From the NCBI RefSeq assembly GCF_009184545.1, contig NZ_QJOW01000001.1:620001-684000 (forward strand): a stretch of DNA of 64,000 nt, read 5' to 3'. The position numbers and the translations under genes are program-made. The stretch is from Halosegnis rubeus. GTDB lineage: Archaea; Halobacteriota; Halobacteria; Halobacteriales; Haloarculaceae. A model generated the notes under the pieces. That model did no database searches. It saw only the letters and a list, made by a program, of their open reading frames with translations, and was not told where the DNA came from. Below are positions 5,716 to 41,403 of the stretch, piece by piece (within the stretch, counting starts at the first letter, position 1; each line of letters opens with the position of its first letter).

Positions 5716-6123
5716 ATGGAGATCTCCGAGAAACTCCTCTGTCTGTTCAGCGCCGATGTCGAGAGCGACGACGACCGATACGTGGTCGAGGTGCCGCGCC
5801 GCGAACTCGACACCGGTGAAATCGAAGCGGGTGAGACGTACCGCGTCGCCCTCATCGCTGCCGGCGAGGACGACGCCGCAAGCGTCGAGAGCGACCGCGC
5901 CGAGACCGCCGGTGAAACCGCAAGTGGGGAACCGCGCCCGCCCGTCGAGCCGGGCGAGATTCGCTACGTTGAGGTGGAAGATATCGGGAAGCAGGGCGAC
6001 GGCATCGCTCGCGTCGAGCGCGGCTACGTCATCATCGTCCCCGACACGGACATCGGCGAGCGCGTCAAAATCGAGGTGACGGAAGTGAAGTCCAACTTCG
6101 CGGTTGGCGAGGTCATCGAGTAG
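5716..6123 (+). CDS. TRAM-domain protein
   Basis: A 135-residue protein whose last ~60 residues form a TRAM domain: RYVEVEDIGKQGDGIARVERGYVIIVPDTDIGERVKIEVTEVKSNFAVGEVIE. This is an OB-like RNA-binding fold found in tRNA modification enzymes and as stand-alone archaeal proteins proposed to act as RNA chaperones. The N-terminal part (MEISEKLLCLFSADVE) is a separate small beta unit, joined by an acidic Pro-rich linker. I preferred the ATG at 5716 over 5701: a TATA-like CTTTAAAC lies about 28 bases upstream, which fits a leaderless transcript. Confidence 0.9.
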   Translation: MEISEKLLCLFSADVESDDDRYVVEVPRRELDTGEIEAGETYRVALIAAGEDDAASVESDRAETAGETASGEPRPPVEPGEIRYVEVEDIGKQGDGIARVERGYVIIVPDTDIGERVKIEVTEVKSNFAVGEVIE

Positions 6124-6286
6124 CCACGCGCGTTCCGTCACCGATTTCTCTCCTCTACCAGCGACGCGGCTCACCCACCCGCCACCGACCTCGGTGGTCC
6201 CGTATTTGTGCCTGAAAACGCAAGACAGCGCCGAAATTAACACGCTGTACCAAACGGCATTTTATGTGCTGGTGGTATGGTGAGGT

Positions 6287-6532
6287 ATGAGCGCGACAGC
6301 TACCCCGGCGACCGCGACCGACCTGAGCGAGAAACAACAGCGAATCCTCGCGTATCTGCGCGAGGCGGCCGCCACGGAGACGTATTTCAAGTCACGCGCA
6401 ATCGGCGAGGAGCTTGACCTGTCGGCAAAAGAGGTCGGTACCAACATGAGTGCGATCTGTGAGGGCGACTTCGGTATCGACGTGGAGAAGTGGGGCTACT
6501 CGTCGGGCACGACCTGGATGGTCACGACGTAG
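6287..6532 (+). CDS. DUF7123-like small HTH protein
   Basis: An 81-residue protein: an Ala/Thr-rich N-terminus, then a winged-helix-like unit (LSEKQQRILAYLREAAATETYFKSRAIGEELDLSAKEVGTNMSAICEG) and a short C-terminal strand (YSSGTTWMVTT). I recall this as the haloarchaeal DUF7123 family, a likely DNA-binding protein. A TATA-like ATTTTATG lies about 26 bases before the ATG, so it is probably leaderless. The 163-base gap upstream carries no other feature I can support. Its 3' end overlaps the convergent regulator at 6522 by 11 bases. Confidence 0.85.
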   Translation: MSATATPATATDLSEKQQRILAYLREAAATETYFKSRAIGEELDLSAKEVGTNMSAICEGDFGIDVEKWGYSSGTTWMVTT

Positions 6533-7139
6533 GGTCATACGAGAGCAGGTCGCTCGCATCGGCCGCAAACGCAACCGTCTCCGGCCCGAAGGAGTCCGCG
6601 TACCGAACCACGAGCACGAGCAGCCGCTCGGGCGCGACGAGCGCGTAGCCGTCCTCGCGCGAGAGCAGGCCGGCCGACTCGAGTTCGCCGACGTACCGGC
6701 TCACGGTCGGGCGCGAGACGCCCAACTCCGCCGCGAGGTCCCCGCCCGTCGCGTCGGGATTCGCCAACAGCGCGAGCACGAGCTTCCTGGCCGTATCGCG
6801 CCGAAGATAGCCGAGTGCGCGCTTCTCGAACGCCGAGAAGCGACCGCTCGGGAAGTAGCGCCGGTAGTCGCCGTCCTTCTCGGACTCGACTCTCCCGTCG
6901 GATTCGAGCCGCCGGAGATGGTGTTGCGCCTCGCCGGTGCCGAGCTTGAGGCCGTCGCGTAGCTTCGAGAAGTGTGCACCGGGGGTGGTGGCGAGATAGC
7001 CGACGATGGCCTCACGACGGTCCGAGCGCTCCTGCCCGTCGTCGTCGTTGTCGCCGGCAAAGCGGGCGAACGGCGACACTGCGCCAATTGCGCCAAAGCG
7101 CTTTAGCGTCGCCCGCTTGCTCTCGTCCACCCCGTCCAT
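6522..7139 (-). CDS. Winged-helix transcriptional regulator, two HTH units
   Basis: A 205-residue protein with two DNA-binding-type modules. The first, about 43-95 (REAIVGYLATTPGAHFSKLRDGLKLGTGEAQHHLRRLESDGRV), resembles the archaeal winged helices that read short signal-dependent operators. The second is about 110-175 (FEKRALGYLRRDTARKLVLALLANPDATGGDLAAELGVSRPTVSRYVGELESAGLL), followed by a wing and a short C-terminal tail. No ligand-binding or membrane segment is visible; a hydrophobic FGAIGAVSPFARFAG near the N-terminus is too short for a TM helix. Tandem wHTH proteins of this size are common in haloarchaea, usually without a known target. Its 3' end overlaps the convergent DUF7123-like gene. 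Confidence 0.85.
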   Translation of the reverse strand: MDGVDESKRATLKRFGAIGAVSPFARFAGDNDDDGQERSDRREAIVGYLATTPGAHFSKLRDGLKLGTGEAQHHLRRLESDGRVESEKDGDYRRYFPSGRFSAFEKRALGYLRRDTARKLVLALLANPDATGGDLAAELGVSRPTVSRYVGELESAGLLSREDGYALVAPERLLVLVVRYADSFGPETVAFAADASDLLSYDPTS

Positions 7140-22379: not shown

Positions 22380-23110
22380 AGTACGTCTGGGAAGTCGTAC
22401 TCGCCGGCGGGTCGGCCCGCGAGTGCTTCGGCCGCATCGACCGCGCCCGCCGCGAAGACGCGGCGCGACTCGGCGCGATGCGTGAGCGTCACCACTTCGT
22501 CGTTGCCGGCGAGCAGCACCTCGTGTTCGCCCCGGACGTTGCCGGCGCGGCGAACGTGGACGCCGACCTCCGCTGGGGCGCGTTCGTGTTCGCCCTCCCG
22601 GCCGTGCGTCCGGTCGAGTGTTGTCCCTCGGGCGTCGTCGATGTCGTCCAGCAGGGTGAGTGCGGTCCCCGAGGGGGCGTCGCGCTTCCCGTTGTGGTGC
22701 GTCTCCGTCAGTTCGATATCGTACTCGGGGAGGGCTTCGACGCCCGCCTGCACGATGTCGCGCAGCGCGTGGACCCCCTTCGCGAAGTTCGACGCCCGGA
22801 GCACGGGAATCTCGCGGGCGGCGTCGGCAAGCGCGGCAAGGCCGTCGTCGTCGAAACCGGTCGTCCCGACGACGAGGGGGACCGCCGTCTCGGCCGCGAC
22901 GGCCGCGTGTTCGACGGTCGCCTCGGGCACGGTGAAGTCAATGAGTGCGTCCGGGTCGGTCTCGGTCAGGACGGTCGCAAGGTCCCCGATGTCGCGCTGC
23001 CCGCCCGTCGGGTCGCGCGAGAGTGCGAGCACGTCGTGGTCGCGGTCGCGGAGCTCGGCGACGGACTCGCTGCCGGTGCGCCCGGTCGCGCCGGCGACGG
23101 CGACCTTCAT
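22376..23110 (-). CDS. dapB: 4-hydroxy-tetrahydrodipicolinate reductase
   Basis: A 244-residue NAD(P)H reductase. The Rossmann motif is at the very start (MKVAVAGATGRTGSESV), followed by ALIDFTVPEATVEHAAVA, VVGTTGFDDDGLAAL, RASNFAKGVHALRDIV and the substrate-binding ELTETHHNGKRDAPSGTALTL with its His-His pair and Lys. I chose the ATG at 23110 because the glycine-rich strand follows immediately; the longer frame is shadow. ATGA overlap with dapA upstream, and with dapD downstream. Confidence 0.96.
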   Translation of the reverse strand: MKVAVAGATGRTGSESVAELRDRDHDVLALSRDPTGGQRDIGDLATVLTETDPDALIDFTVPEATVEHAAVAAETAVPLVVGTTGFDDDGLAALADAAREIPVLRASNFAKGVHALRDIVQAGVEALPEYDIELTETHHNGKRDAPSGTALTLLDDIDDARGTTLDRTHGREGEHERAPAEVGVHVRRAGNVRGEHEVLLAGNDEVVTLTHRAESRRVFAAGAVDAAEALAGRPAGEYDFPDVL

Positions 23111-23997
23111 ACGTCCAACCCGAGGTCGGCGAGGACCGACCGCAGCTCCTCGCGGTTCTCCCCGCGGAGCCGCGACAGCGGTGGGCGCATCCTCACCGGC
23201 TGCTGGTCGCACATCGCCTGTGCCTCCTTGATGGGGATGGGATTCGTCTCGACGAACAGGGTCCGGAACAGCGGCCCGAGCTCGAACTGGAGCTCGCGGG
23301 CGGCCGCGTACTCATCTTCGAGTGCGTGCTCGACCAGCCGGCTCGTCCGCTCGGGGACGAGATTCGCGGCGACGGAGATGGCTCCCTTCCCGCCGAGCGA
23401 CATAATCGGGAGCGTCAACGCGTCATCGCCCGAGAGCACGGCGAAGTTCTCCTCGCGGGTGCGCTCGATGACCTCGCCGACGCGGCCGAGGTCGCCGGAG
23501 GCGGCCTTGTAGCCGACGACGTTCTCGTGGGTCGCGAGCGATTCGGCCGTCTCGACGGCGATGTTGCGGCCCGTCCGCCCGGGAACGTTGTAGACAATCT
23601 GTGGCAGGTCGACCTCGTCGGCGACGGTGCGGAAGTGGTCTTCCATGCCCGCCGGCTCTGGCGTGTTGTAATACGGCGAGATGAGCAGAAGCCCGTCGGC
23701 ACCGGCCTCGGCTGCACGCCGGGAGAGGTCGAGCGCCTCGTCGGTGTTGTTGGAGCCGGAGCCGGCGACGACGGGAATCGAGTCGGCCGCCTCGACGGCC
23801 GCCTCGATGACGGCGACGTGTTCGTCGTGGGTCATCGTCGCGGACTCCCCGGTGGTGCCGACGGGGACGACGCCGTGGACGCCCTCGCGCTCGACGCGTC
23901 GGACGTTCTGTTTGAATGTCTCGAAGTCGATGCTGCCGTCCTCGTGGAACGGGGTCGTGAGTGCCGGCATCGCGCCGGTGAATGTGTCGTGTGTCAT
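23107..23997 (-). CDS. dapA: 4-hydroxy-tetrahydrodipicolinate synthase
   Basis: A 296-residue class I aldolase that condenses pyruvate with aspartate semialdehyde. Motifs are GVVPVGTTGESATMTHDEHVAVIE (about 41-64), the tyrosine region LLISPYYNTPEP, and the Schiff-base lysine in NVVGYKAASGD (about Lys-162). The start ATG at 23997 gives the conserved FTGAMPALTTPFHEDGSIDF opening. First gene of a four-gene lysine operon with 4-base overlaps throughout, so its promoter in the 250-base gap to 24249 probably drives all four. Confidence 0.96.
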   Translation of the reverse strand: MTHDTFTGAMPALTTPFHEDGSIDFETFKQNVRRVEREGVHGVVPVGTTGESATMTHDEHVAVIEAAVEAADSIPVVAGSGSNNTDEALDLSRRAAEAGADGLLLISPYYNTPEPAGMEDHFRTVADEVDLPQIVYNVPGRTGRNIAVETAESLATHENVVGYKAASGDLGRVGEVIERTREENFAVLSGDDALTLPIMSLGGKGAISVAANLVPERTSRLVEHALEDEYAAARELQFELGPLFRTLFVETNPIPIKEAQAMCDQQPVRMRPPLSRLRGENREELRSVLADLGLDV

Positions 23998-24248
23998 GGG
24001 GTTTCGGTAGGTACTCGAAGGCGATACTCGGCGCGACCAACGACGGGGTGTAAGCCCGCCGAGAGTCAAAACTGCACGCGCTTCGACTTCGAGCGGTCAC
24101 CGTCGCGGGTGGGGGTCGCGGCGACAGGTCCAGAACCCGGAGACGGATGCATACACGAGATGCGAGTGCGCGACCAGTTAGCGTTTGCGTCCTCGGCACG
24201 TCTCTCGCTCCCAGAAGGTTCATACCCGCCTGTTTACAACCGACGGTA

Positions 24249-26087
24249 ATGAGCGAGGTCGCGGTGAGCGTCGTCCTCCCGGCGTACAACGAGGAGGCGA
24301 CAATCGAACACACCGTCCGGACGACCCTCGAGACCCTCGGGACGTTTCTCCCCGACGGGAGCTTCGAGGTCATCGTCGCCGAGGACGGCTGTGACGACGC
24401 CACCCCCGACATCGCAGACCGGCTCGCGGCCGAGGATTCCCGCGTCCGACACTTCCACTCAGACGAGCGACTGGGCCGTGGCGGCGCACTCGAACGCGCC
24501 TTCCGGGAGAGTGGGGGCGAGACGCTCGTCTACTTCGATACCGACCTCGCGACCGATATGTCGCACCTCGAGGAGCTGGTCGAGTCCGTTCGTACGGACG
24601 GGTACGACGTGGCGACGGGTTCTCGCCGAATCCCGGGAGAAAAGCAGGACCGAGAACCGGAACGCGGGCTCGCTTCGACCGGATACAACGCGCTCGTCAA
24701 GCTGTTCTTGCGCTCTGACCTCCACGACCACCAGTGCGGGTTCAAGTCGTTCGACCGCGCGGTGTTGTTCGACCTGCTCGAGGACACCGAAGACGACCAC
24801 TGGTTTTGGGACACCGAGGTACTCGTGCGCGCACAGCGGGCGGGCTACGACATCAAGGAGTTTCCCGTCCGGTGGACGCCGAAAGGCGACACGAAGGTCG
24901 ATCTCGTCCGGGACGTGTTCGGGATGGGGAGCCAAATTCTCCGCGTCTGGTGGGAGTTCTCGATTAAGCCGCGGGCGACCCGCCGAGCCGGACTCGTCGC
25001 GGGAATCCTGCTCACCCTCGCCGCGCTCGCGTTGATGACGGTGTATCTCGACCCCGACGCGATTCTCGATGCTATCCGGGGCGCAGACTACCGGCTCGTC
25101 GCGCTGGCTGCCGGCGTCTACGCCCTCTCGTGGCCGCTGCGCGGACAGCGCTACCGCGACATCTTGCGCGAACTCGGCTACGACGGCGACCTGCTGTTCA
25201 TGACTGGAGCGGTGTTCATCTCACAGACCGGAAACCTCGTCTTCCCGGCCCGCGCGGGCGACGCCGTGCGCGCGTACGTCGTGAAAGCCCGCCGGAAGAT
25301 TCCGTATCCGAGCGGCTTCGCCTCGCTCGCTGTCGAACGCGTCTTCGATCTGCTCGCGATTACGGTGCTCGCGGGCGCGGTCCTCGTCGGGCTGCTCGCC
25401 ACCGGCGGTGCCGACGGGCTGGCGGAGGCAATCGCGGCCGACATCGGCACCGTCGAGATTGGCGGCCAATCCATCGCCCCGGGTGCAGCGGCCAGAACCG
25501 CGCTCCGGGTGGCGGCCGTGGTCGGGGTGCTGGCCATCGCCGGCGTCGCCGTCATCGTCGCGAGCGCGCGCCGAGACACCGACCTCGTCCACCGGTTCGT
25601 CAGCACCATCAGCGACGACTCGTACGCCGACTACGTCTCGACGGCTATCGGTCAGTTCGTCGGCGACGTACAGGCGGTCGCCGGCGACCGTAGCGCCTTC
25701 GCCCGCATCGGCCTGTCGAGTCTCCTCGTGTGGGGTATCGACGTGGTGACGGCCATCGTCGTGCTCGCGGCGTTCCAGGTGCCGGTGACGCCGTATCTCG
25801 TCGCGGTCTCCTTTTTCGCCGTCAGCGTCGGCAACCTCGCAAAAATCGTCCCCCTGTCGCCGGGGGGTATCGGTCTCTACGAGGGGGCGTTCACCCTCAT
25901 CGTCGTCGGCTTCACCGCCAACATCACCCCGGCGGTTGCCATCGCGGTCGCCGTCCTCGACCACGCAGTCAAGAACATCGTCACGATGGTCGGCGGTATC
26001 GCCTCCACACTCGTGTTCAACGTCTCGCTCGTCGAGGCCGTCGAAGGAGCCGCCGAGGTGGAAGAGTCGGTCAGTAGTGAGCAGTGA
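24249..26087 (+). CDS. Glycosyltransferase family 2 fused to UPF0104/flippase-like membrane domain
   Basis: A 612-residue fusion. Residues about 1-235 are a GT2 dolichyl-phosphate-sugar-synthase-like domain (SVVLPAYNEEATIEHTVRTTL; VIVAEDGCDDATPDIADRL; TLVYFDTDLATDMSHLEELV with the D-x-D metal site; HQCGFKSFDRAVLFDLL; DHWFWDTEVLVRAQRAGYDIKEFPVRW). Residues about 250-590 carry about eight membrane helices of the UPF0104/lysylphosphatidylglycerol-synthase TM type (TGAVFISQTGNLVFPARAGDAVRAYVV; KIVPLSPGGIGLYEGAFTLIVVG). The enzyme probably loads a sugar on a lipid carrier, and the membrane half may move or dock it. A TATA-like TTTACAA lies just before the ATG. Ends in a 17-base overlap with the convergent NTPase gene. 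Confidence 0.92.
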   Translation: MSEVAVSVVLPAYNEEATIEHTVRTTLETLGTFLPDGSFEVIVAEDGCDDATPDIADRLAAEDSRVRHFHSDERLGRGGALERAFRESGGETLVYFDTDLATDMSHLEELVESVRTDGYDVATGSRRIPGEKQDREPERGLASTGYNALVKLFLRSDLHDHQCGFKSFDRAVLFDLLEDTEDDHWFWDTEVLVRAQRAGYDIKEFPVRWTPKGDTKVDLVRDVFGMGSQILRVWWEFSIKPRATRRAGLVAGILLTLAALALMTVYLDPDAILDAIRGADYRLVALAAGVYALSWPLRGQRYRDILRELGYDGDLLFMTGAVFISQTGNLVFPARAGDAVRAYVVKARRKIPYPSGFASLAVERVFDLLAITVLAGAVLVGLLATGGADGLAEAIAADIGTVEIGGQSIAPGAAARTALRVAAVVGVLAIAGVAVIVASARRDTDLVHRFVSTISDDSYADYVSTAIGQFVGDVQAVAGDRSAFARIGLSSLLVWGIDVVTAIVVLAAFQVPVTPYLVAVSFFAVSVGNLAKIVPLSPGGIGLYEGAFTLIVVGFTANITPAVAIAVAVLDHAVKNIVTMVGGIASTLVFNVSLVEAVEGAAEVEESVSSEQ

Positions 26088-32496: not shown

Positions 32497-32569
32497 GTGT
32501 CGTTTTTGTCCCCGCAGTGACCGAGAGCCGGGGGTCTCGCGCTTTTCGAGTACGAAACGCGGAATGTGA

Positions 32570-32584
32570 TTGCGAATTTCGTAG
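32570..32584 (+). promoter_or_regulatory. 15-bp element shared with carA, upstream of carB
   Basis: TTGCGAATTTCGTAG occurs here and, on the other strand, at 41455-41469 upstream of carA. Here it ends 43 bases before the carB ATG and 12-13 bases before a TATA-like CTTATTA (32597-32603). The core CGAATTTCG is an inverted repeat with a one-base centre. The position just upstream of the BRE/TATA suits an activator or a bound Lrp-type regulator. Confidence 0.65.
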
Positions 32585-32627
32585 TACTTCGCCGGGCTTA
32601 TTACGATGTACGAACTCCCTCGTCGTA

Positions 32628-35600
32628 ATGAGCGACGAGACCGAGGACAGGACCATCCTCCTCATCGGCAGTGGACCGATCCAGATTGGACAGGCCGCCG
32701 AGTTCGACTACTCCGGTGCGCAGGCGTGTCGCGCACTCCAGGAGGAGGGCGCGCGGGTCGTCCTCGTCAACTCGAATCCGGCCACCATCATGACCGACTC
32801 CGAGATGGCAGATAAGGTGTACGTCGAACCCATCACCGTCGACGCCATCTCGGAGATCATCGCGACCGAACAGCCCGACGGCGTCATCGCGGGGCTCGGC
32901 GGCCAGACCGGGCTGAACGTCACCGCCGAACTCGCCGAGGAGGGCGTCCTCGACGAGTACGATGTGGAGGTCATGGGCACGCCGCTCGACACCATCTACG
33001 CGACGGAAGACCGCGACCTCTTCCGCCAGCGCATGGAGGCCATCGGCCAGCCGGTCCCGCAGTCGACGACCATCGAGATGGACGAGGGCGAGTCCGTCAC
33101 CGACCTCACGACCGAGGGCCTCCAAGACCGCGTCGACGAGGCGGTCGAAGCCGTCGGCGGGCTACCGGTCATCTCCCGCACCACCTACACCCTCGGCGGC
33201 TCCGGCTCCGGCGTCGTCGACGACATCGACGAGCTGTACGAGCGCGTTCGCAAGGGACTGCGTCTCTCTCGCAACTCCGAGGTGCTCATCACCGAGTCCA
33301 TCTCGGGATGGGTAGAACTGGAGTACGAGGTGATGCGCGACGCCGACGACTCGTGTATCATCATCTGCAACATGGAGAACATCGACCCGATGGGTATCCA
33401 CACCGGGGAGTCGACGGTCGTCACGCCCTCGCAGGTCATCCCCGACGAGGGCCACCAGGAGATGCGCGACGCCGCGCTCGGCGTCATCCGCGAGCTCGGG
33501 ATTCAGGGCGGCTGTAACATCCAGTTCGCGTGGCACGACGACGGCACCCCCGGTGGCGAGTACCGCGTCGTCGAGGTGAACCCCCGCGTCTCCCGTTCGT
33601 CCGCGCTCGCATCGAAGGCGACCGGCTACCCGATTGCCCGCGTCACCGCGAAGGTCGCGCTCGGGAAGCGCCTCCACGAAATCGACAACGAGATCACCGG
33701 CGAGACGACCGCCGCCTTCGAGCCGGCGATCGATTACGTCGTCACGAAGGTGCCCCGCTGGCCCATCGACAAGTTCGGCGACGTGGAGTTCGAGCTGTCG
33801 ACGGCGATGAAATCGACCGGCGAGGCGATGTCCATCGGCCGCACCTTCGAGGAGTCGCTGCTGAAGGCGTTGCGCTCCTCGGAGTACGACCCGGCGGTCG
33901 ATTTCGCGACCGTCGATGACGAGACGCTCGAAGCCGAGTATCTGACCAAGCCGACGCCAGACCGTCCGTACGCGCTGTTCGAGGCGTTCTATCGCGGCTA
34001 CGACACCGACGAACTCGTCGAGCTGACCGACATCCACGAGTGGTACGTCGAGCGCTTCGGCAACGTCACAACAGCGGCGAAGCAGGCGATGGAAGGCGAC
34101 ACCGACGCCGCGACCGCCATCGGCTTCACGAACCAGGAGGCGACGGCGCTGGCCGGCGGAGAGTTCAACGACACCCACGCCTCGTGGCTACCGGCGGCCC
34201 TCCACGTCGAGACCGGCGACGAGCCGGACGAGGTGGCGGCCGACGGTGCCGGTGCCGGCGCGAAGGTCGAGACCGTCGAGGAGACGGCGATCGACCGCCG
34301 CTTCAAGCAGGTGGACACCTGCGCCGGCGAGTTCGCTGCCTCGACGCCGTACTACTACTCGGCGCGCGAGCCGCTCTCGGAAATCGCCCGCGACGAGGTG
34401 AAAGTCGACACCGACGCCGAGAGCGTCGTCGTGGTCGGCGGCGGTCCGATTCGCATCGGGCAGGGTGTCGAGTTCGACTACTGTGCCGTGCACGCGGTGC
34501 GTGCCCTCCGCGAGCAGGGACTCGATGCCCACGTCGTCAACAACAATCCAGAGACGGTGTCGACTGACTACGACACCTCCGACGGACTGTTCTTCGAGCC
34601 GGTCACGGCAGAAGAGGTCGCCGACGCCGTGGAGGCGACGAACGCCGACGGCGTGATGGTGCAGTTTGGCGGTCAGACCTCCGTGAACGTCGGCGAGCCG
34701 CTCGAACGCGAACTCGACCGCCGCGGTCTCGACTGTGAGATTCTCGGCACGAGCACCGAGGCGATGGACCTCGCGGAGGACCGCGACCGCTTCAACGTCC
34801 TGATGGACGAGATGGGCATCGCACAGCCGGAAGGCGGCACGGCGACCTCCGAGGACGAAGCCTTGGACCTCGCCGACGACCTCGGCTACCCGGTGCTCGT
34901 GCGCCCGTCGTACGTGCTCGGCGGCCGCGCGATGGACGTGGTCTACTCCGACGCGGAGCTGAAGGAGTACATCGAAGAGGCGGTGCGCGTCTCCCCGGAC
35001 AAGCCGATTCTCGTCGACGAGTTCCTCGCCGACGCTGTGGAACTCGATGTCGACGCGGTCGCCGACGGCGAGGACGTGCTCATCGGCGGCGTGATGGAGC
35101 ACGTCGAAGCTGCGGGTGTCCACTCTGGCGACTCCGCGTGCATGATTCCGCCCCGTTCCCTGTCGGCCGAGACCCTTGAGCGCGTGCGCGAAGTGACCGA
35201 AGACATCGCAACCGCGCTCGACACCGTCGGCCTGCTGAACGTCCAGCTCGCGGTCCGCGACGGCGAGGTGTACGTGCTTGAGGCGAACCCGCGCTCCTCG
35301 CGTACGGTCCCGTTCGTCTCGAAGGCGACCGGCGTCCCGATTGCGAAGCTGGCGGCGAAGGTGATGGCCGGAGCGTCGCTCGCCGACCTCGGCGTCCACG
35401 AGCAGGTGCCGGAACACGTCTCCGTGAAGGAGGTCGTCCTGCCGTTCGACCGCCTGCCCGGCTCTGACCCGCGTCTCGGTCCCGAGATGAAGTCCACCGG
35501 CGAAGTGATGGGAACCGCCCGCTCGTTCGGCAAGGCGTATCTGAAGGCGCAGGACGCCACCGGCAAGCCGATTCCGACCGAGGGGACCGCGCTGCTCGAC

Positions 35601-35918
35601 ATCGAGACGCTGCGCGGCCTCTCACAGAAGAACGAAGACCTCTCGGACATCGAGGAGCGTCTCGTCCGCAACTTCGAGGTGACTACGCCCGACGACTACG
35701 ACGACCTCGCGAGTGCGGTCCAGCGCGGCGAACTCGATTTGATCTGCTCGCGCGACCGCGACCTGCTCGAAACTGCGGTCGAAGAAGAGATTACGTACTT
35801 CTCCACGGTGCCGAGCACCCGCGCCGCGATGGAAGCCATCGAGACGAAAGACGAACCGCTCGACGTGCTCGCCCTGTCGGAGCGTCCGACAGAGCGTCGC
35901 GATTGGGGGACGTTGTGA
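32628..35918 (+). CDS. carB: Carbamoyl-phosphate synthase large subunit
   Basis: A 1096-residue enzyme making carbamoyl phosphate for pyrimidines and arginine, using ammonia from CarA. Both ATP-grasp halves are present: the first opens [23 protein letters not shown] (about 8-30), the second [21 protein letters not shown] (about 600-620). Each is followed by its pre-ATP-grasp and ATP-grasp segments ([18 protein letters not shown] and [18 protein letters not shown]). An MGS-like allosteric domain ends the protein ([27 protein letters not shown]). An acidic insertion follows the first half. I use the ATG at 32628; the frame is open to 32517 but that part is promoter. carA is 4.4 kb away in the opposite direction. 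Confidence 0.97.
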   Translation: [1096 protein letters not shown]

Positions 35919-35938
35919 CCGTAGCCTGGGGCTGAGTC

Positions 35939-36640
35939 TCAGTTCGCTCGCCGCGCGAGCAGTCCGGCGCCGAGGAGTCCGGCCACCGCACCGACGGCGG
36001 TGAAGCCGGGCTGTCCGGCGGCGGTCGTTCCATCCGGACCGCTCGGACTCGCCGTGACCTCGAGTCCGTCGAGTGACGTGTTCGCACTCTAGCGGAGGGT
36101 ACCGGCCACGTCAGCGTCAGGGGTCGGCATCGCCGACAGCCGGTAGCCGTCGGGTGCCGTGACGACGAACTGTCGGTCGGGACTGTAGTCGCTGGCGAAC
36201 GGCTCTGCGAGCGTCAACTGCTCGCCGTCGACCGCCGCGAGATTCGTCCACGTCGCGGAGAGTTCGACCACGCCGGTGTCCGACTCCGTCCGCACGGTCG
36301 CGGTCGGGTCCGTTATCTCCATCTGTCGACCCGTCTCCGCTGCGGCCGACGACGCGACGCCGTCGAGCCGGCTCGCGAACGAGTCACGCATCTCGTTTAC
36401 GTTCGTCTGGTTTGCCCGCAGCGTCTCGAACGCCTCGCGCTCGCTGTCGGTCGTCAGGTCGAACGTCAGCCGGAGGGTCACCTCGGCGTCGCCGTCGGCC
36501 GCGAGGTCGACGACGAACGCCTCACCGGGGTGTGAATCAGCCGCTGTCGCGGTACCGGCTCCGCTCGCGACGACTGCGATGACCAGCGCGGCGATACCGG
36601 CTCGCCGTAGTGCCGTTCCGACTGTGGTGTCACGGTTCAC
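35939..36640 (-). pseudogene. DUF7345-like secreted protein with PGF-CTERM tail, interrupted by in-frame TAG
   Basis: A signal peptide (about 1-34, RRAGIAALVIAVVASGAGTATA) is followed by a beta-rich extracellular domain to residue 183, then TAG at 36089-36091. Reading on in the same frame gives ~49 more residues ending GQPGFTAVGAVAGLLGAGLLARRAN, a textbook PGF-CTERM archaeosortase signal (PGF, membrane helix, basic end), and a TGA at 35939. The paralogue at 38676 has, at the same spacing after PTPD, a Trp where this gene has the stop (T-V-R-W against T-L-R-TAG), so a TGG to TAG change is the simplest reading. If translated only to the TAG the product would be secreted but not anchored. Start overlaps the upstream gene by 4 bases. 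Confidence 0.75.
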
Positions 36641-38481
36641 TGTTCCGTCTGGCTCGCCGTGTCCGTCTCCTCGTCGTCCACTTCGTCGTCGTCTTCGTCC
36701 GCCTTGTCATCGTCATCGTCGTCTTCGTCGTCATCTTCCTCGGTCTCGGCTTCGTCGTCCGCTTCGTCTTCATCGCCGGCGTTCGCGTGGTCCGGCGGGC
36801 CGCGCTCACCGTCGTCGTCATCGCGCTCCGGCGCGCGCTCGCTTCGATTATCGTCGCCTTCACCGCGGTCGTCCTCGTCACCCTCGTCGTCTGCGTCGTC
36901 GTCGCTGTGACCGGGGGCCTCGTCGCTACGGCCACGGTCACCGTTGTCACCGGCGTGTGGACTCTCCGTCATCGAGAGCGTCCCGTCGGTGAGTTCGTAC
37001 TCGAACTCCGCCTCGAACTCGCCTTTCACGATTTCCACTTCGAACGACTCCGTACCGTTCGGAACGGCGAACGAGACGGTCCCGTTCGCGTCGGTCGTGC
37101 CGACCTGCTCGTCGTTCGCGTAGACGGACGCGCCGGCCACACCGCTCCCTTCGTACTGGACCGTCGCGGTGACCGTGTCACCCTCGAGCGTCGCGTCCGC
37201 AGTCAGGTTCCGGTACACCTCGTCGTCGTCCTCGCCGAGTTCGAACTCGAGTTCACCCTCGCCGGCTTCGAGTTCGACCTCGCCGCTCTCGGGCAGCGTC
37301 ACCGACACGGTGCCGTCCGCACCGGTCGTGCCGACCGGCTCACCGTTGAGCGTCACCGTCACGTTCGACGCCGCCTCGCCGTCTGCGAGCGCGCGGACGG
37401 TGATGGTGCTGTTCGGTGCGATGTCGCCCTCGGCGACGACGAGTGCGAGTTCACGCTCTTCGTCTTCTTGTTCGGTGTCGTCTTCGTCGTCACCGCGTTC
37501 GCCGGCTTCCTCCGGCGGGCCGCGTCCGGGGTTGTTCTCGCTCGCCTCGTCCGCGTTGGCCGGACCCTTCTGTCGCGTGGTCGATTCCAGTTCCACGACC
37601 GTGCCCGCGGAGCCGTCGACGGTCGCGCTGGCCTGTCCGACGGTCGTGTTCGTGTTCACGTGGAAGCGGAACTCGTAGTTGCCGTCCTCGCTGTCGATCC
37701 GGCTGTTCACGAGCCGCCACTGCTTCTCGACCGTCGGGAGCGCGTCGCGTGCGGTATCGAGTGCTGTGCTCTGGTTGACGGTCAGGTTCGCGGACTCGTC
37801 GCCCGGACGATTGAGCTCACGCGACTGTTCGCCGTCCTCGCTTTCCACCTCAATGGTGAGTCCGTTCGCCGACTCGATTTCGACTTCGCCCTCGCGCTCG
37901 CCGGTGAACTGCTGGAGCAGCGCCGACGCGCCCGTGCCGCTGACGCTGTCGAGGCTATCGACCGCGCCGTCGAGCGCCGACTCGTTGAACCCCGCCGCGC
38001 GGAGTTCAAGCGCCGAGAACGCGTTCGAGCGCTCCGACAGTGCGTCGTAGGAGGCGAGCAGGTTCGACGCTCGAGAGTTCAGCGTCGCGATGCGCTGTGC
38101 GTACTCGGATTTCGTCAACTCGCCGTCCTCGTAGGCCTCGGTGGCTGTCTCGTAGGCGTCGGTGATGCGGTTTGTCCGCTCTTCGAGCGCGGCTGCTCGG
38201 TTAGCGAGCGCTCGTGCACGCGCCTCCTCGCTCGCGTTGTCGTACTCCACCTCGAATTCGGTCTCTTCGACCTCGCTCTGTACGTCGTCGCTCGTCACCG
38301 CCAGCACGGTCGAGAGCTGCTGGCCGGTCGTGACGTTGACGCTGCTGTTGTCGTCCTGTTGCAGCTCGGTCAGTTGGTCTGTGGTCGATGCGTCCGACGG
38401 GGTCACTGCCCCCACACCGCCCGCGGCCCCTGCGGTGAGCATGAGCATCGCGAACAGTGTCGCGGTCAGTTTGCGAACCAT
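36637..38481 (-). CDS. Large secreted DUF7096-like protein with acidic tail
   Basis: A 614-residue exported protein. Signal peptide about 1-25 (VRKLTATLFAMLMLTAGAAGGVGAV), then a long helical region (about 60-180, with EARARALANRAAALEERTN and similar). Two Ig/carboxypeptidase-regulatory-like repeats follow, each with G-E/Q-x-V-G-T-T-x-A-N/D-G-T-V-S, at about 375-430 and 445-500. The last ~110 residues are almost only Asp, Glu, Arg and Gly. I recall the N-terminal half as DUF7096. It carries many N-x-S/T sites and no sortase signal. Start at 38481 rather than 38511: a TATA-like box lies about 27 bases upstream on this strand. Same-operon overlap with the interrupted PGF-CTERM gene suggests a shared surface role. 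Confidence 0.8.
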   Translation of the reverse strand: MVRKLTATLFAMLMLTAGAAGGVGAVTPSDASTTDQLTELQQDDNSSVNVTTGQQLSTVLAVTSDDVQSEVEETEFEVEYDNASEEARARALANRAAALEERTNRITDAYETATEAYEDGELTKSEYAQRIATLNSRASNLLASYDALSERSNAFSALELRAAGFNESALDGAVDSLDSVSGTGASALLQQFTGEREGEVEIESANGLTIEVESEDGEQSRELNRPGDESANLTVNQSTALDTARDALPTVEKQWRLVNSRIDSEDGNYEFRFHVNTNTTVGQASATVDGSAGTVVELESTTRQKGPANADEASENNPGRGPPEEAGERGDDEDDTEQEDEERELALVVAEGDIAPNSTITVRALADGEAASNVTVTLNGEPVGTTGADGTVSVTLPESGEVELEAGEGELEFELGEDDDEVYRNLTADATLEGDTVTATVQYEGSGVAGASVYANDEQVGTTDANGTVSFAVPNGTESFEVEIVKGEFEAEFEYELTDGTLSMTESPHAGDNGDRGRSDEAPGHSDDDADDEGDEDDRGEGDDNRSERAPERDDDDGERGPPDHANAGDEDEADDEAETEEDDDEDDDDDDKADEDDDEVDDEETDTASQTEQ

Positions 38482-38550
38482 ATCTCCCCCAAGTAGCGCT
38501 ACCCATATCAACCGGGTCGACGCTGGCGGTAGTTTGCGGTCGATTTCGAA

Positions 38551-38570
38551 CGTTTGCAGACGTTTGCAGA
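38551..38570. repeat. Tandem 10-bp direct repeat in divergent promoter
   Basis: CGTTTGCAGA is repeated twice without a gap (38551-38560, 38561-38570) and followed by the related CGGTTGTACC; another GTTTGC lies at 38533. One helical turn per unit would place identical faces on one side of the DNA. It is 70-90 bases upstream of the minus-strand gene start and about 105 bases upstream of the plus-strand gene start. Confidence 0.6.
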
Positions 38571-38592
38571 CGGTTGTACCCCGTCGCCCGGT

Positions 38593-38615
38593 GTTGATTT
38601 CCCAAATATATCAAC
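38593..38615. promoter_or_regulatory. Inverted repeat and AT-rich segment in divergent promoter
   Basis: GTTGAT (38593-38598) and ATCAAC (38610-38615) flank an AT-rich 11-base centre that includes AAATATAT. A further TATA-like GATATTTAT (about 38645-38653) is about 27 bases before the ATG at 38676, consistent with a leaderless transcript. The repeat may bind the regulator encoded there, by inference. Confidence 0.4.
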
Positions 38616-38675
38616 TGAATTTCAATTGCTTGCACACGTCTCAAGATATTTATCTCGGACGTTAGTAGCTCGGCT

Positions 38676-39698
38676 ATGAGACGGCTGGTCGTCGTGGCAA
38701 CCCTGCTGCTCGTGGCCAGCACCATCGTCGTCGGGGGCGTCCAGCAGACGCCCGATGCCGACAACACCGTCACGCGCATCGCGGTCCAGCCGGACGGCGA
38801 CGCCGAGTGGACGGTCACTGTTCGAACGCGGCTCGAAACCGAAGAGGAGCTGCGCGCGTACGAGGAGTTCCAGTCGCGGTTCAGAGCCAACACCTCCGAG
38901 TACGTCTCGCCGTTCCGAACCCGCATCGAGGGTGTCGTCGCGTCGAGCGCGACCGCGACCGACCGGGAGATGCGCGCACGGAACGTCACGGCCGCGACGG
39001 ACATCCGCCAACTCCCCCGTCGGTGGGGAGTCGTCACCTACTCGTTCACGTGGACGCAGTTTGCAGCCGCCGACCGGGACGTCCTCGCCGTCGGTGACGT
39101 GTTCGCGGGGGGCTTCTTCATCGCCGAGAACGACACGCTCGTCGTTACGACGCCGCCGGAGTACACGCTCGCGGAGGTCGAGCCGACCCCCGACAGCCGC
39201 GACGGCGACACGGTTCGGTGGCGTGGCCAGCGCGATTTCAGTGACGGTCGCCCGGCGCTCCGGCTCGAACCGGCCCCAGCGGAAACGACGACGGGGACGG
39301 CGGACGGCGGTGGCGGGCTACCGCTCGCAGCGCTGGGCGGTCTGCTCGCTCTCGTCGCCGCAGCGCTCGGCGTGTATCTGTACCGCGGTCGGGACGGGAG
39401 TACTGGGGCCGAGCCGCCGGGGACCGATCGGCCGGACGCTGGTCCCGGTTCCGGTCCAGTACCGAACGGGGCGGAAACGACGACGGCAGCGTCGGACCCG
39501 ACCCTCACGGACGGTGAGCGGGTCGAGCAACTGCTCGCGGACAACGGCGGCCGGCTGAAACAGGGAGACATCGCGGAGGCGTTCGAGTGGTCGGCCTCGA
39601 AGACCTCTCGCGTGGTCTCGCAGCTGGCCGACGACGGGCGGGTCGAGAAGCTTCGCATCGGACGCGAGAACGTCGTCTCGCTCTCCAAGACGGAGTGA
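38676..39698 (+). CDS. Membrane-anchored winged-helix regulator with extracellular DUF7345-like domain
   Basis: A 340-residue one-component sensor layout: signal/anchor helix (about 5-21), extracellular beta-rich domain (about 25-205) resembling the product of the interrupted gene at 35939, one membrane helix (about 212-234), a disordered Pro/Gly linker, and a cytoplasmic winged helix (about 276-338: TLTDGERVEQLLADNGGRLKQGDIAEAFEWSASKTSRVVSQLADDGRVEKL). I recall these as DUF7345 plus DUF7343. The DNA-binding end is inside the cell, so a surface signal could be passed to DNA without a kinase. Divergent from the DUF7096-like gene; the shared gap has a tandem repeat. Confidence 0.85.
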   Translation: MRRLVVVATLLLVASTIVVGGVQQTPDADNTVTRIAVQPDGDAEWTVTVRTRLETEEELRAYEEFQSRFRANTSEYVSPFRTRIEGVVASSATATDREMRARNVTAATDIRQLPRRWGVVTYSFTWTQFAAADRDVLAVGDVFAGGFFIAENDTLVVTTPPEYTLAEVEPTPDSRDGDTVRWRGQRDFSDGRPALRLEPAPAETTTGTADGGGGLPLAALGGLLALVAAALGVYLYRGRDGSTGAEPPGTDRPDAGPGSGPVPNGAETTTAASDPTLTDGERVEQLLADNGGRLKQGDIAEAFEWSASKTSRVVSQLADDGRVEKLRIGRENVVSLSKTE

Positions 39699-39773
39699 CC
39701 GCGACTCTGCCGGCCGGTCGCGACGCACTCGATGTCTCCCCCACCGACCTTTTGTGTCGCCCGTTATGAAACG

Positions 39774-40286
39774 GTGGCGTATGAATTGACGGAAATCGTC
39801 ATTACGGCGACCGCGGCAGCGACCGCAGCGGTGGCGGGTTGCTCCGGAACCAGCGAGAGCCCCGGCGGCGGCGGAAACGAGACGGTCGCCGCGGAGGACC
39901 CCTCTGCCGGTGTGACTTCCCGTCAGTCCCTACGGATGACCGTCGGTGAGAGCGTCGCCGGCTCCGAGTGGACCTCGATCGCGGCCGAGTATCCGCGCGA
40001 GCACTTTACGCTTCAGTCGGCACAACACGAGGAGCTGTCGCTCGGCGTCGACACGACGGGCGATGGGACCGTCAACGAGTCGTTCGACGAATCGAACGTG
40101 AGCGGTGCAAACAACAACGCGTACTCGTTCAACATCGGTCTCGACACCGGGTACGAACTCCAGCAGGGAGACGTCGTCGTCGTCGAGTACCCCGCCGTCG
40201 ACAATCCCGACGAGGCGGGCGAGTACGAGGTCGACCTGACGCTCAACGACGAGCAGTCGGCGACGGGCACGCTTTCGATTCAGTAA
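39774..40286 (+). CDS. Putative lipoprotein, start uncertain
   Basis: About 170 residues. The frame contains a hydrophobic segment ending in a lipobox (ITATAAATAAVAGC), then a Gly/Ser-rich spacer and a beta-rich acidic domain (DDTGDGTV-like Asp-Gly turns; GYELQQGDVVVVEYPAVDNPDEAGEYEVDLTLN). No ATG is in frame near the start; GTG at 39774 is the best in-frame choice. The expected ATG (39766 MKRWRMN, or 39781) lies in the +1 frame and hits TGA at 39787, so a one-base deletion may have broken the natural start and its usual basic region. Probably surface anchored; function unknown. Confidence 0.6.
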   Translation: MAYELTEIVITATAAATAAVAGCSGTSESPGGGGNETVAAEDPSAGVTSRQSLRMTVGESVAGSEWTSIAAEYPREHFTLQSAQHEELSLGVDTTGDGTVNESFDESNVSGANNNAYSFNIGLDTGYELQQGDVVVVEYPAVDNPDEAGEYEVDLTLNDEQSATGTLSIQ

Positions 40287-40344
40287 CGGCCCCCTGAGAA
40301 GCGATTTCCTGCGTCGCGTTCCGTGTGCTGACCGACGACAGTGA

Positions 40345-41403
40345 TTACGCCGCCAGCTCGGCGTCCTTGGCGAGCGCGAGCACGTCGTCGAAGAAGTCCA
40401 GCGAGTCGTTCGGACCGGGATTCGCCTCGGGGTGGTACTGGCGGGTGAGCACGTCGAGCTCGTCACTCTCCAGCCCCTCGGGGGTGTCGTCGTTGACGTT
40501 CACCTGCGTCACTTCGAGCTGGCCGGGTTCGGAGACGGTGTAGCCGTGATTCTGGGTCGTCATGACGACGCGTCCGGACCGGAGGTCACGCACCGGCTGA
40601 TTGACGCCGCGGTGACCGAAGTCCATCTTCTCGGTCTCGCCGTCGAGCGCGCCCGCGATGACCTGCTGGCCGAGACAGATGCCCGCGAGTGGCACCTCGC
40701 CGACGAACTCCTCGACGAGCGCGTGGGCGGCGGTGAAGTTCTCCGGGTCGCCCGGCCCGTTCGAGATGAACAGGATGTCGGGGTCGAGATGCTCCACGTC
40801 GGCGGCGGTCGCGTCGTACGGGAGCACGTCGACGACGGCGTCACGCTCCACGAGCGAGGACGTGATGGAGCCTTTCGCGCCACAGTCGACCAGCGCGACG
40901 TGAGGGCCGTCTCCGTTCGGATTGTGCGTGTGTCGCTTTGCGACGGAGACCTGTTGGCCGATGTCGGTGTGTTCGCTCATCCCCTTGCACGCCGACAGCT
41001 CCTCGCGGGCGGCCGCCTCGGTGGCGTCAGGTCCGGCGGCGATACCACACTTCATCGCCCCCTCCTCGCGGATTCCGGTGACGAGGTCGCGGGTGTCGAG
41101 GTGGTCGATTGCTGGCACGTCCTCCTCGGTGAGCCACTCGGCCACGTCGTCGGTGAGTTCGCGCGCGACGACCGCACGCGGGTGGACGCGGTCGGACTCG
41201 AACCGCTCCTCGCGGACGCCGTAGTTCCCGATGAGCGGGTACGAGAAGGTGAGCACCTGCTCCTCGTAGGAGGGGTCGGTCAGCGACTCCTCGTAGCCGG
41301 TGTAGGCGGTCGTGAAGACGAGCTCTCCGCGGGTGGTCCCCGGTGCGCGGCTGCGGGCTTCCACCACACGGCCGCTCTCCAGTGCGACGTATGCCGTTTC
41401 CAT
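40345..41403 (-). CDS. carA: Carbamoyl-phosphate synthase small subunit
   Basis: A 352-residue glutaminase subunit that feeds ammonia to CarB. The N-terminal CPSase_sm domain opens ETAYVALESGRVVEARSRAPGTTRGELVFTTAYTGYEESLTDPSYE. The class I amidotransferase has its nucleophile in VPLAGICLGQQVIAG (Cys about 241) and the His/Glu pair in RQYHPEANPGPND. The start at 41403 is fixed by the conserved opening. TATA-like GATTAACA on this strand lies about 27 bases upstream (leaderless). The 15-bp carA/carB element is 52 bases before the ATG. Confidence 0.97.
   Translation of the reverse strand: METAYVALESGRVVEARSRAPGTTRGELVFTTAYTGYEESLTDPSYEEQVLTFSYPLIGNYGVREERFESDRVHPRAVVARELTDDVAEWLTEEDVPAIDHLDTRDLVTGIREEGAMKCGIAAGPDATEAAAREELSACKGMSEHTDIGQQVSVAKRHTHNPNGDGPHVALVDCGAKGSITSSLVERDAVVDVLPYDATAADVEHLDPDILFISNGPGDPENFTAAHALVEEFVGEVPLAGICLGQQVIAGALDGETEKMDFGHRGVNQPVRDLRSGRVVMTTQNHGYTVSEPGQLEVTQVNVNDDTPEGLESDELDVLTRQYHPEANPGPNDSLDFFDDVLALAKDAELAA

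Follow-up and report, generated by a model that had tools for sequence, protein, structure and literature searches.

Does a membrane-tethered DNA-binding protein control the secreted proteins encoded beside it? The question arises at a locus of Halosegnis rubeus (NCBI RefSeq assembly GCF_009184545.1, contig NZ_QJOW01000001.1, positions 620,001 to 684,000 of the forward strand; this whole stretch of 64,000 nucleotides, the DNA of which is haloarchaeal, is termed the window). Three genes are considered: A, for a surface protein with a DUF7345 domain; B, for a secreted DUF7096-type protein; and C, divergent from B, for the putative regulator. We show that the locus represents a single copy of an archaeal module that is conserved and has been duplicated repeatedly; it is recognized by its gene set, co-conservation, domains and a repeat array between B and C. 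Our preferred reading, to which we give a probability of roughly 0.5, is that C acts as a transmembrane one-component regulator that would bind head-to-tail beside the B-A promoter and be modulated outside the cell by anchored A and by B.

A conserved and repeatedly duplicated module

Gene C encodes a 340-amino-acid (aa) protein with a signal peptide. A DUF7345 ectodomain (residues 34–163, 124.9 bits against a gathering cut-off of 27.5), a transmembrane helix (residues 218–238 in the structure model) and a DUF7343 winged helix (residues 277–336, 92.1 bits) follow one another, so that one protein unites a DNA-binding domain with a transmembrane region, as a preliminary description made from the sequence had proposed. 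In the model (mean predicted local distance difference test score, pLDDT, 81.6) the ectodomain, which combines two long helices with many strands, and the winged helix were mostly above 90, and the linker between membrane and winged helix (residues 241–275) is disordered (pLDDT <50). The winged helix is MarR-like: VIA structure comparison, which covered mainly residues 266–340 and barely the DUF7345 fold, gave Z up to 11.0 over 64 residues at 1.9 Å, and a Pfam search at E up to 1 yielded MarR/IclR-like matches and no OmpR-type winged helix (Trans_reg_C). Foldseek placed FMO proteins at the top for the ectodomain (TM 0.17–0.20), matches that we treated as spurious; LppM (2nc8, TMt 0.49) is a lead only.

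The A product carries DUF7345 (PF24036) as well, at 92.0 bits (E 4.6e-26) against the same cut-off, and shares ∼33–35% identity with the C ectodomain. This likeness was read from the sequence, the structure having been modelled for C alone; at that level the two extracellular domains are homologous, in agreement with the resemblance suspected earlier. The end of A at 35939 given by the preliminary description is reached only through an in-frame TAG that it had missed, and the open reading frame (ORF) up to this stop comprises 183 codons (36640–36089). Where the TAG stands, Trp is found in at least 90% of A relatives (alignment A2, column 248), and the frame beyond it, to 35938, encodes a PGF-CTERM-like tail. 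Because the anchor and the final strands of the domain both lie beyond the stop, A is truncated in this assembly; the data fit a nonsense mutation and a sequence error alike. The close relatives L044, L045 and L046 have an intact A. In L044, the nearest, the tail scores as PGF-CTERM (TIGR04126/PF18204; 29.0 bits against a cut-off of 24.5), and the window ORF stops before it. PF18204 was matched at E up to 1 by 6 of 15 aligned A proteins.

Gene B overlaps A by 4 bases (36637–36640) on the minus strand, for which reason the two look like one operon, and its 614-aa product has a signal peptide, two immunoglobulin (Ig)-like domains and an acidic tail. It is thus the large secreted protein that had been placed in the operon of A. 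Window B scored 25.5 against DUF7096 (PF23379; cut-off 27), the genome search gave 28.9, and all 24 aligned B proteins matched the family at E up to 0.1 (best 3e-16). The model of residues 1–504 (mean pLDDT 83.0) shows, in order, a helical bundle (52–192), a PepSY/YpeB-like sheet/helix region (∼195–304) and the Ig-like domains (345–498). In structure comparison, which with VIA covered mainly residues 342–500 and barely the helical bundle, the Ig domains resembled macroglobulin-type domains (Z ∼10), and residues 191–412 align with YpeB (PDB 5boi; Z 8.9, 137 residues, 3.8 Å). Three B relatives resembled PepSY at E 5.5e-5 to 3.9e-4, slightly short of the cut-off in every case; a Pfam search of the window B fragment gave no PepSY match. 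We therefore take the YpeB-like nature of the B model as a lead, not as membership.

Linkage of the families was examined in 48 genomes of the order, searched for DUF7345 and DUF7096, with genes within 4 kb counted as linked. DUF7345 had 113 matches in 46 genomes, and the 88 listed DUF7096 matches fell in 43. A DUF7345 gene lay within 4 kb of 67 of these 88 (∼0.6 expected by arithmetic from genome size), the other 21 being unlinked; 41 genomes had at least one pair and 21 had two or more. Chance linkage was rejected from these counts, and the expectation that the genes stay together across haloarchaeal genera was borne out. The arrangement was divergent in 43 pairs. A long DUF7345 gene immediately preceded DUF7096 on the same strand in 17 and followed it in 4; another 7 had a short, A-type DUF7345 gene downstream of DUF7096. 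Many haloarchaeal surface proteins combine Ig repeats with an acidic tail, which would suit a plain adhesin or surface operon that has a regulator beside it by accident. Linkage in 41/48 genomes, often twice over and in several arrangements, makes that explanation extremely improbable.

A scan of named genomes, restricted to the best 80 of 293 regulator loci, gave a similar picture. A DUF7096-type B adjoined C in 74 loci and C stood alone with respect to A and B in 6; A was present in 22, directly after B in all of them. The A-B-C set was carried by Halobellus captivus, Halorubrum saccharovorum, Haloferax marinum, Natronorubrum thiooxidans, Natrinema salsiterrestre, Halomarina halobia and Salinibaculum sp. 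KK48. At one locus (L061, 5600–8526) A and B are accompanied by another DUF7345 gene, the product of which has a transmembrane helix at its C-terminus and no detected winged helix; the DNA-binding part of this regulator was apparently lost.

DUF7345 was found in all 116 family genomes searched, and exceeded the cut-off in 38 of 148 genomes of the phylum, 14 of these outside the order. Twelve loci (L204–L215) from 11 of the 14 were inspected: all have a DUF7345 gene, most with the ectodomain-membrane helix-winged helix layout. An intact A-B pair is divergent from a C split over two frames (5737–6713) in L210, and a B-type gene lies nearby in L212. Thus, the architecture of the regulator is not confined to the haloarchaeal order, and the three-gene arrangement is found outside it at least once.

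DUF7345 occurs three times in the genome of the window, in A, in C and in a paralogue of the latter (C′, G000:C6:23045–24067). C′ is divergent from a DUF7096 gene (B′), forming a second, two-gene locus without A (L064, G000:C6 ∼23045–25523). Loci were assigned to types by the motif of the recognition helix: WSNAKVSQLL in type I, the paralogous locus; WSxSK(T/V)SR in type II, the window locus; and WTxAKTSQ in type III. In a tree of 86 DUF7345 ectodomain sequences (130 columns), many forks of which are weak, the 20 type II rows (97/85) and the 16 type III rows (98/94) each formed a supported clade, the type III loci being mostly collinear, and 8 of 9 type I rows fell in one clade (100/98), with L083 elsewhere. 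The 28 rows of A domains were set apart by a weakly supported branch (27/4), and 26 of them, haloarchaeal, formed a strong clade (100/99). Since motif and tree come from different domains, their agreement is independent.

The repeat array between B and C

The divergent B/C promoters carry 10-bp tandem direct repeats, (CGTTTGCAGA)n. In the window they form five 10-bp steps, in order GTTTGCGGTC, GATTTCGAAC, GTTTGCAGAC, GTTTGCAGAC and GGTTGTACCC, so the shared repeat noticed earlier between the divergent genes is real. The array begins 51 bp upstream of the B start codon, just behind the likely TATA element of B, and ends 64 bp before that of C. The distance to B was read from the sequence of the window; those of the other loci, which depend on automatic starts and skipped 11 of 26, were not used.

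From 30 type II loci 26 divergent gaps were obtained, and from 37 type I loci 35 gaps, which include one duplicate (L022 = L064). In the type II gaps, pairs of TTGCR at exactly 10 bp were observed 27 times against 0.12 expected; there were 12 at 20 bp (0.14 expected) and 4 at 30 bp (0.02 expected), and few at other short spacings. Such a pair at 10 or 11 bp was present in 21 of 26 gaps, when compared with a mean of 0.14 and a maximum of 1/26 in 50 shuffles. The arrays of all 21 loci share one direction, on the C-sense strand and toward C. In Haloferax marinum (locus L108) the array accompanies the full A-B-C set. The TTGCR array was absent from the type I intergenic regions (0/35), and the non-divergent loci had one isolated pair each in 2 of 52.

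In the genome of the window a large regulon was not seen: TTGCR-N5-TTGCR gave 10 matches against 22 for the reversed control, and, as judged by eye, the window site alone fits the fuller repeat. The three-unit pattern gave 31 matches in 20 of the 116 family genomes against 9 for the reversed control; 11 of them (9 genomes) were the B/C intergenic region of the module and 1 lay beside another gene joining DUF7345 to a winged helix.

These data suggest that (i) the array is probably the docking site of C; and (ii) control of B-A by C, which the preliminary description had proposed, gains independent if indirect support from the conservation of the array with type II regulators. It is mainly the position of the array upstream of the B TATA, where archaeal activators commonly sit, that leads us to favour activation over repression. 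The same module could also work in the opposite sense, C repressing B-A (and itself) until its ectodomain binds a ligand, A or B. Repression is common among MarR-type winged helices, autorepression would go with a promoter region shared by divergent genes, and the array does lie between both promoters; however, in the window it covers neither the TATA element nor the start site of B and stops short of the C TATA by the 64 bp given above. Repression is thus a real but unlikely alternative.

Other sites were recorded in the same intergenic regions and genomes. The type I gaps (e.g., L018, L022, L024) have a conserved GGATGGAAAGCGTTTT just upstream of C′ (TTTCCAT in 28/35 vs. 0.4), weak 20-bp repeats in 6/35, and, in some, copies of GAGACGTTTYAT ∼20 bp apart; the GGATGGAAAGCGTTTT/GAGACGTTTYAT element is possibly the type I operator or promoter. 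A dispersed repeat of G099 and G112, TTTCGAGGTGTTGCGG... (L187, L189, L195, L196, L198–L203), accounts for 11 of the 31 three-unit matches and is probably a repeat family. Four genomes of one genus (L176–L179) share a conserved TTTCGGTCCGTTGCAGACCGTTTCA-like site that is not near DUF7345; in L177 and L178 it is near a gene whose start looks, by eye, like a KaiC/RadA-type ATPase.

A proposed tethered regulator and its alternatives

Under the preferred reading, several copies of C would be embedded in the membrane, the DUF7345 domains facing outward and the winged helices bound to the array, head-to-tail along one face of the DNA. Direct repeats of one helical turn put all half-sites on one face, and a membrane-fixed protein can reach one face with many copies, so that array and tether fit each other. 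C would most likely activate the B-A operon and perhaps tune its own gene. A, anchored through PGF-CTERM and bearing the same DUF7345 domain, probably pairs or competes with the C ectodomain as a co-component, and B would be the output and probably also a monitored component of the envelope. Such a loop would report the amount of the secreted or anchored partner outside. With A truncated, it would run on C and B alone in the window strain.

The single membrane helix and long disordered linker of C would also suit regulated proteolysis, in which the state of the ectodomain triggers cleavage in or near the membrane and the freed winged helix reaches the DNA. The module comes without a protease gene, however, and a same-face array suits a protein that stays tethered; we consider cleavage quite improbable.

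Several observations weigh against the reading of C as a tethered activator on the array. MarR-like winged helices usually act as dimers on palindromic sites. The exact TTGCR pair is missing from 5 of 26 type II loci (L109 has looser 10-bp-phased copies by eye), and DUF7096 is lacking next to 42 of the 113 DUF7345 genes. A is not essential, since it is absent from 58 of 80 regulator loci and broken in the window. Finally, as far as the loci were inspected, 19 of the 31 three-unit matches lie away from DUF7345 genes (11 as a dispersed repeat in two genomes, of which one was inspected, 4 in one genus and 4 single), so the motif is not exclusive to the module locus. These 19 matches would agree with an array that serves another, soluble regulator, C being linked to the locus otherwise, e.g., by sensing B and acting elsewhere. 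Yet the array accompanies type II regulators and is lacking in all 35 type I intergenic regions, and the class of the recognition helix changes with the locus type, which renders a soluble regulator improbable.

Relation to known systems and surroundings of the locus

Transmembrane transcription regulators (TTRs) are single-pass membrane proteins with a DNA-binding domain and an outside sensor, at ∼4 per archaeal genome (PMC10269533). The main text of that survey holds no word beginning with "halo", and the survey is not known to name DUF7345, partner genes of this sort or such an operator. Literature searched by family name returned nothing for DUF7345, DUF7343, DUF7096 or DUF4897. The claim that no system of this layout has been described thus agrees with the literature searched, but the general kind, a TTR with a partner, is known (PMC10269533). 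The module is undescribed in the literature searched and belongs to the known TTRs; it is not a new category.

In ToxR/ToxS of Vibrio, the extracytoplasmic ToxS forms a heterodimer with the sensor domain of ToxR (PMC8359183), and the ToxR site is TNAAA-N5-TNAAA (PMC4829181). The module is ToxR-like in its membrane-tethered winged helix, and TTGCR-N5-TTGCR, the putative site of C, has the 10-bp step of the ToxR site described there. The winged helix of ToxR is OmpR-type and N-terminal, whereas that of C is MarR-like and C-terminal; in addition, the putative partner A is itself paralogous to the sensor domain and PGF-CTERM-anchored, and the module has B as a further secreted protein, of large size. 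We found no sequence relation between ToxR/ToxS and the module, which would resemble them in logic, not by homology. YpeB of Bacillus has a role in spore germination, for which there is no counterpart at the module, and B extends beyond YpeB by Ig repeats and an acidic tail. Sulfolobus ArnR and ArnR1 are reportedly archaeal membrane-bound one-component regulators of surface structures, in a lineage different from that of the module; we know of no partner module of such kind for them.

Archaeal transmembrane information transfer is poorly known beyond two-component systems and chemotaxis, and the module looks like an undescribed archaeal way to sense the cell surface. More tentatively, it may represent archaeal co-component membrane signalling convergent with ToxR/ToxS, in which a tethered MarR-type winged helix, arranged head-to-tail along one face of a 10-bp array, is governed outside the cell by an anchored copy of the sensor and a secreted YpeB-like/Ig protein, duplicates that differ in recognition helix and operator serving as insulated parallel channels within a single cell. 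Its predicted operator makes regulation directly testable, and paralogous loci in one cell with differing recognition helices do the same for the specificity of tethered regulators.

Table 1. Features of the locus and its flanks (window coordinates).
Feature	Coordinates	Strand	Remarks
carB	32517–35918	+	
Gene A, DUF7345 surface protein	35938–36640	−	GTG start 36640; in-frame TAG 36091–36089
Gene B, secreted, DUF7096-type	36637–38481	−	614 aa; start of A overlapped by 4 bases
Probable TATA element, B-A operon	38505–38512	−	∼27 bp 5′ of B start codon, leaderless; predicted from sequence
Operator-like array, five 10-bp steps	38532–38581	+	Sequence, repeat search
Probable TATA element, C	38646–38653	+	∼26 bp 5′ of C start codon, leaderless; predicted from sequence
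Gene C, signal peptide, DUF7345 ectodomain, transmembrane helix, linker, DUF7343 MarR-like winged helix	38676–39698	+	
carA	41403–40345	−	

The module sits between carB and carA, and the split of these two genes (32517–41403) is seen in the genus of the window. The carAB context was rejected as the meaning of the module, because among the loci examined carB and carA flank it only in the window genome and the close relatives L044–L046. In L044 C adjoins carA; in the window the interval between them holds a small secreted or lipoprotein-like ORF (39732–40286), which is absent there in L044.

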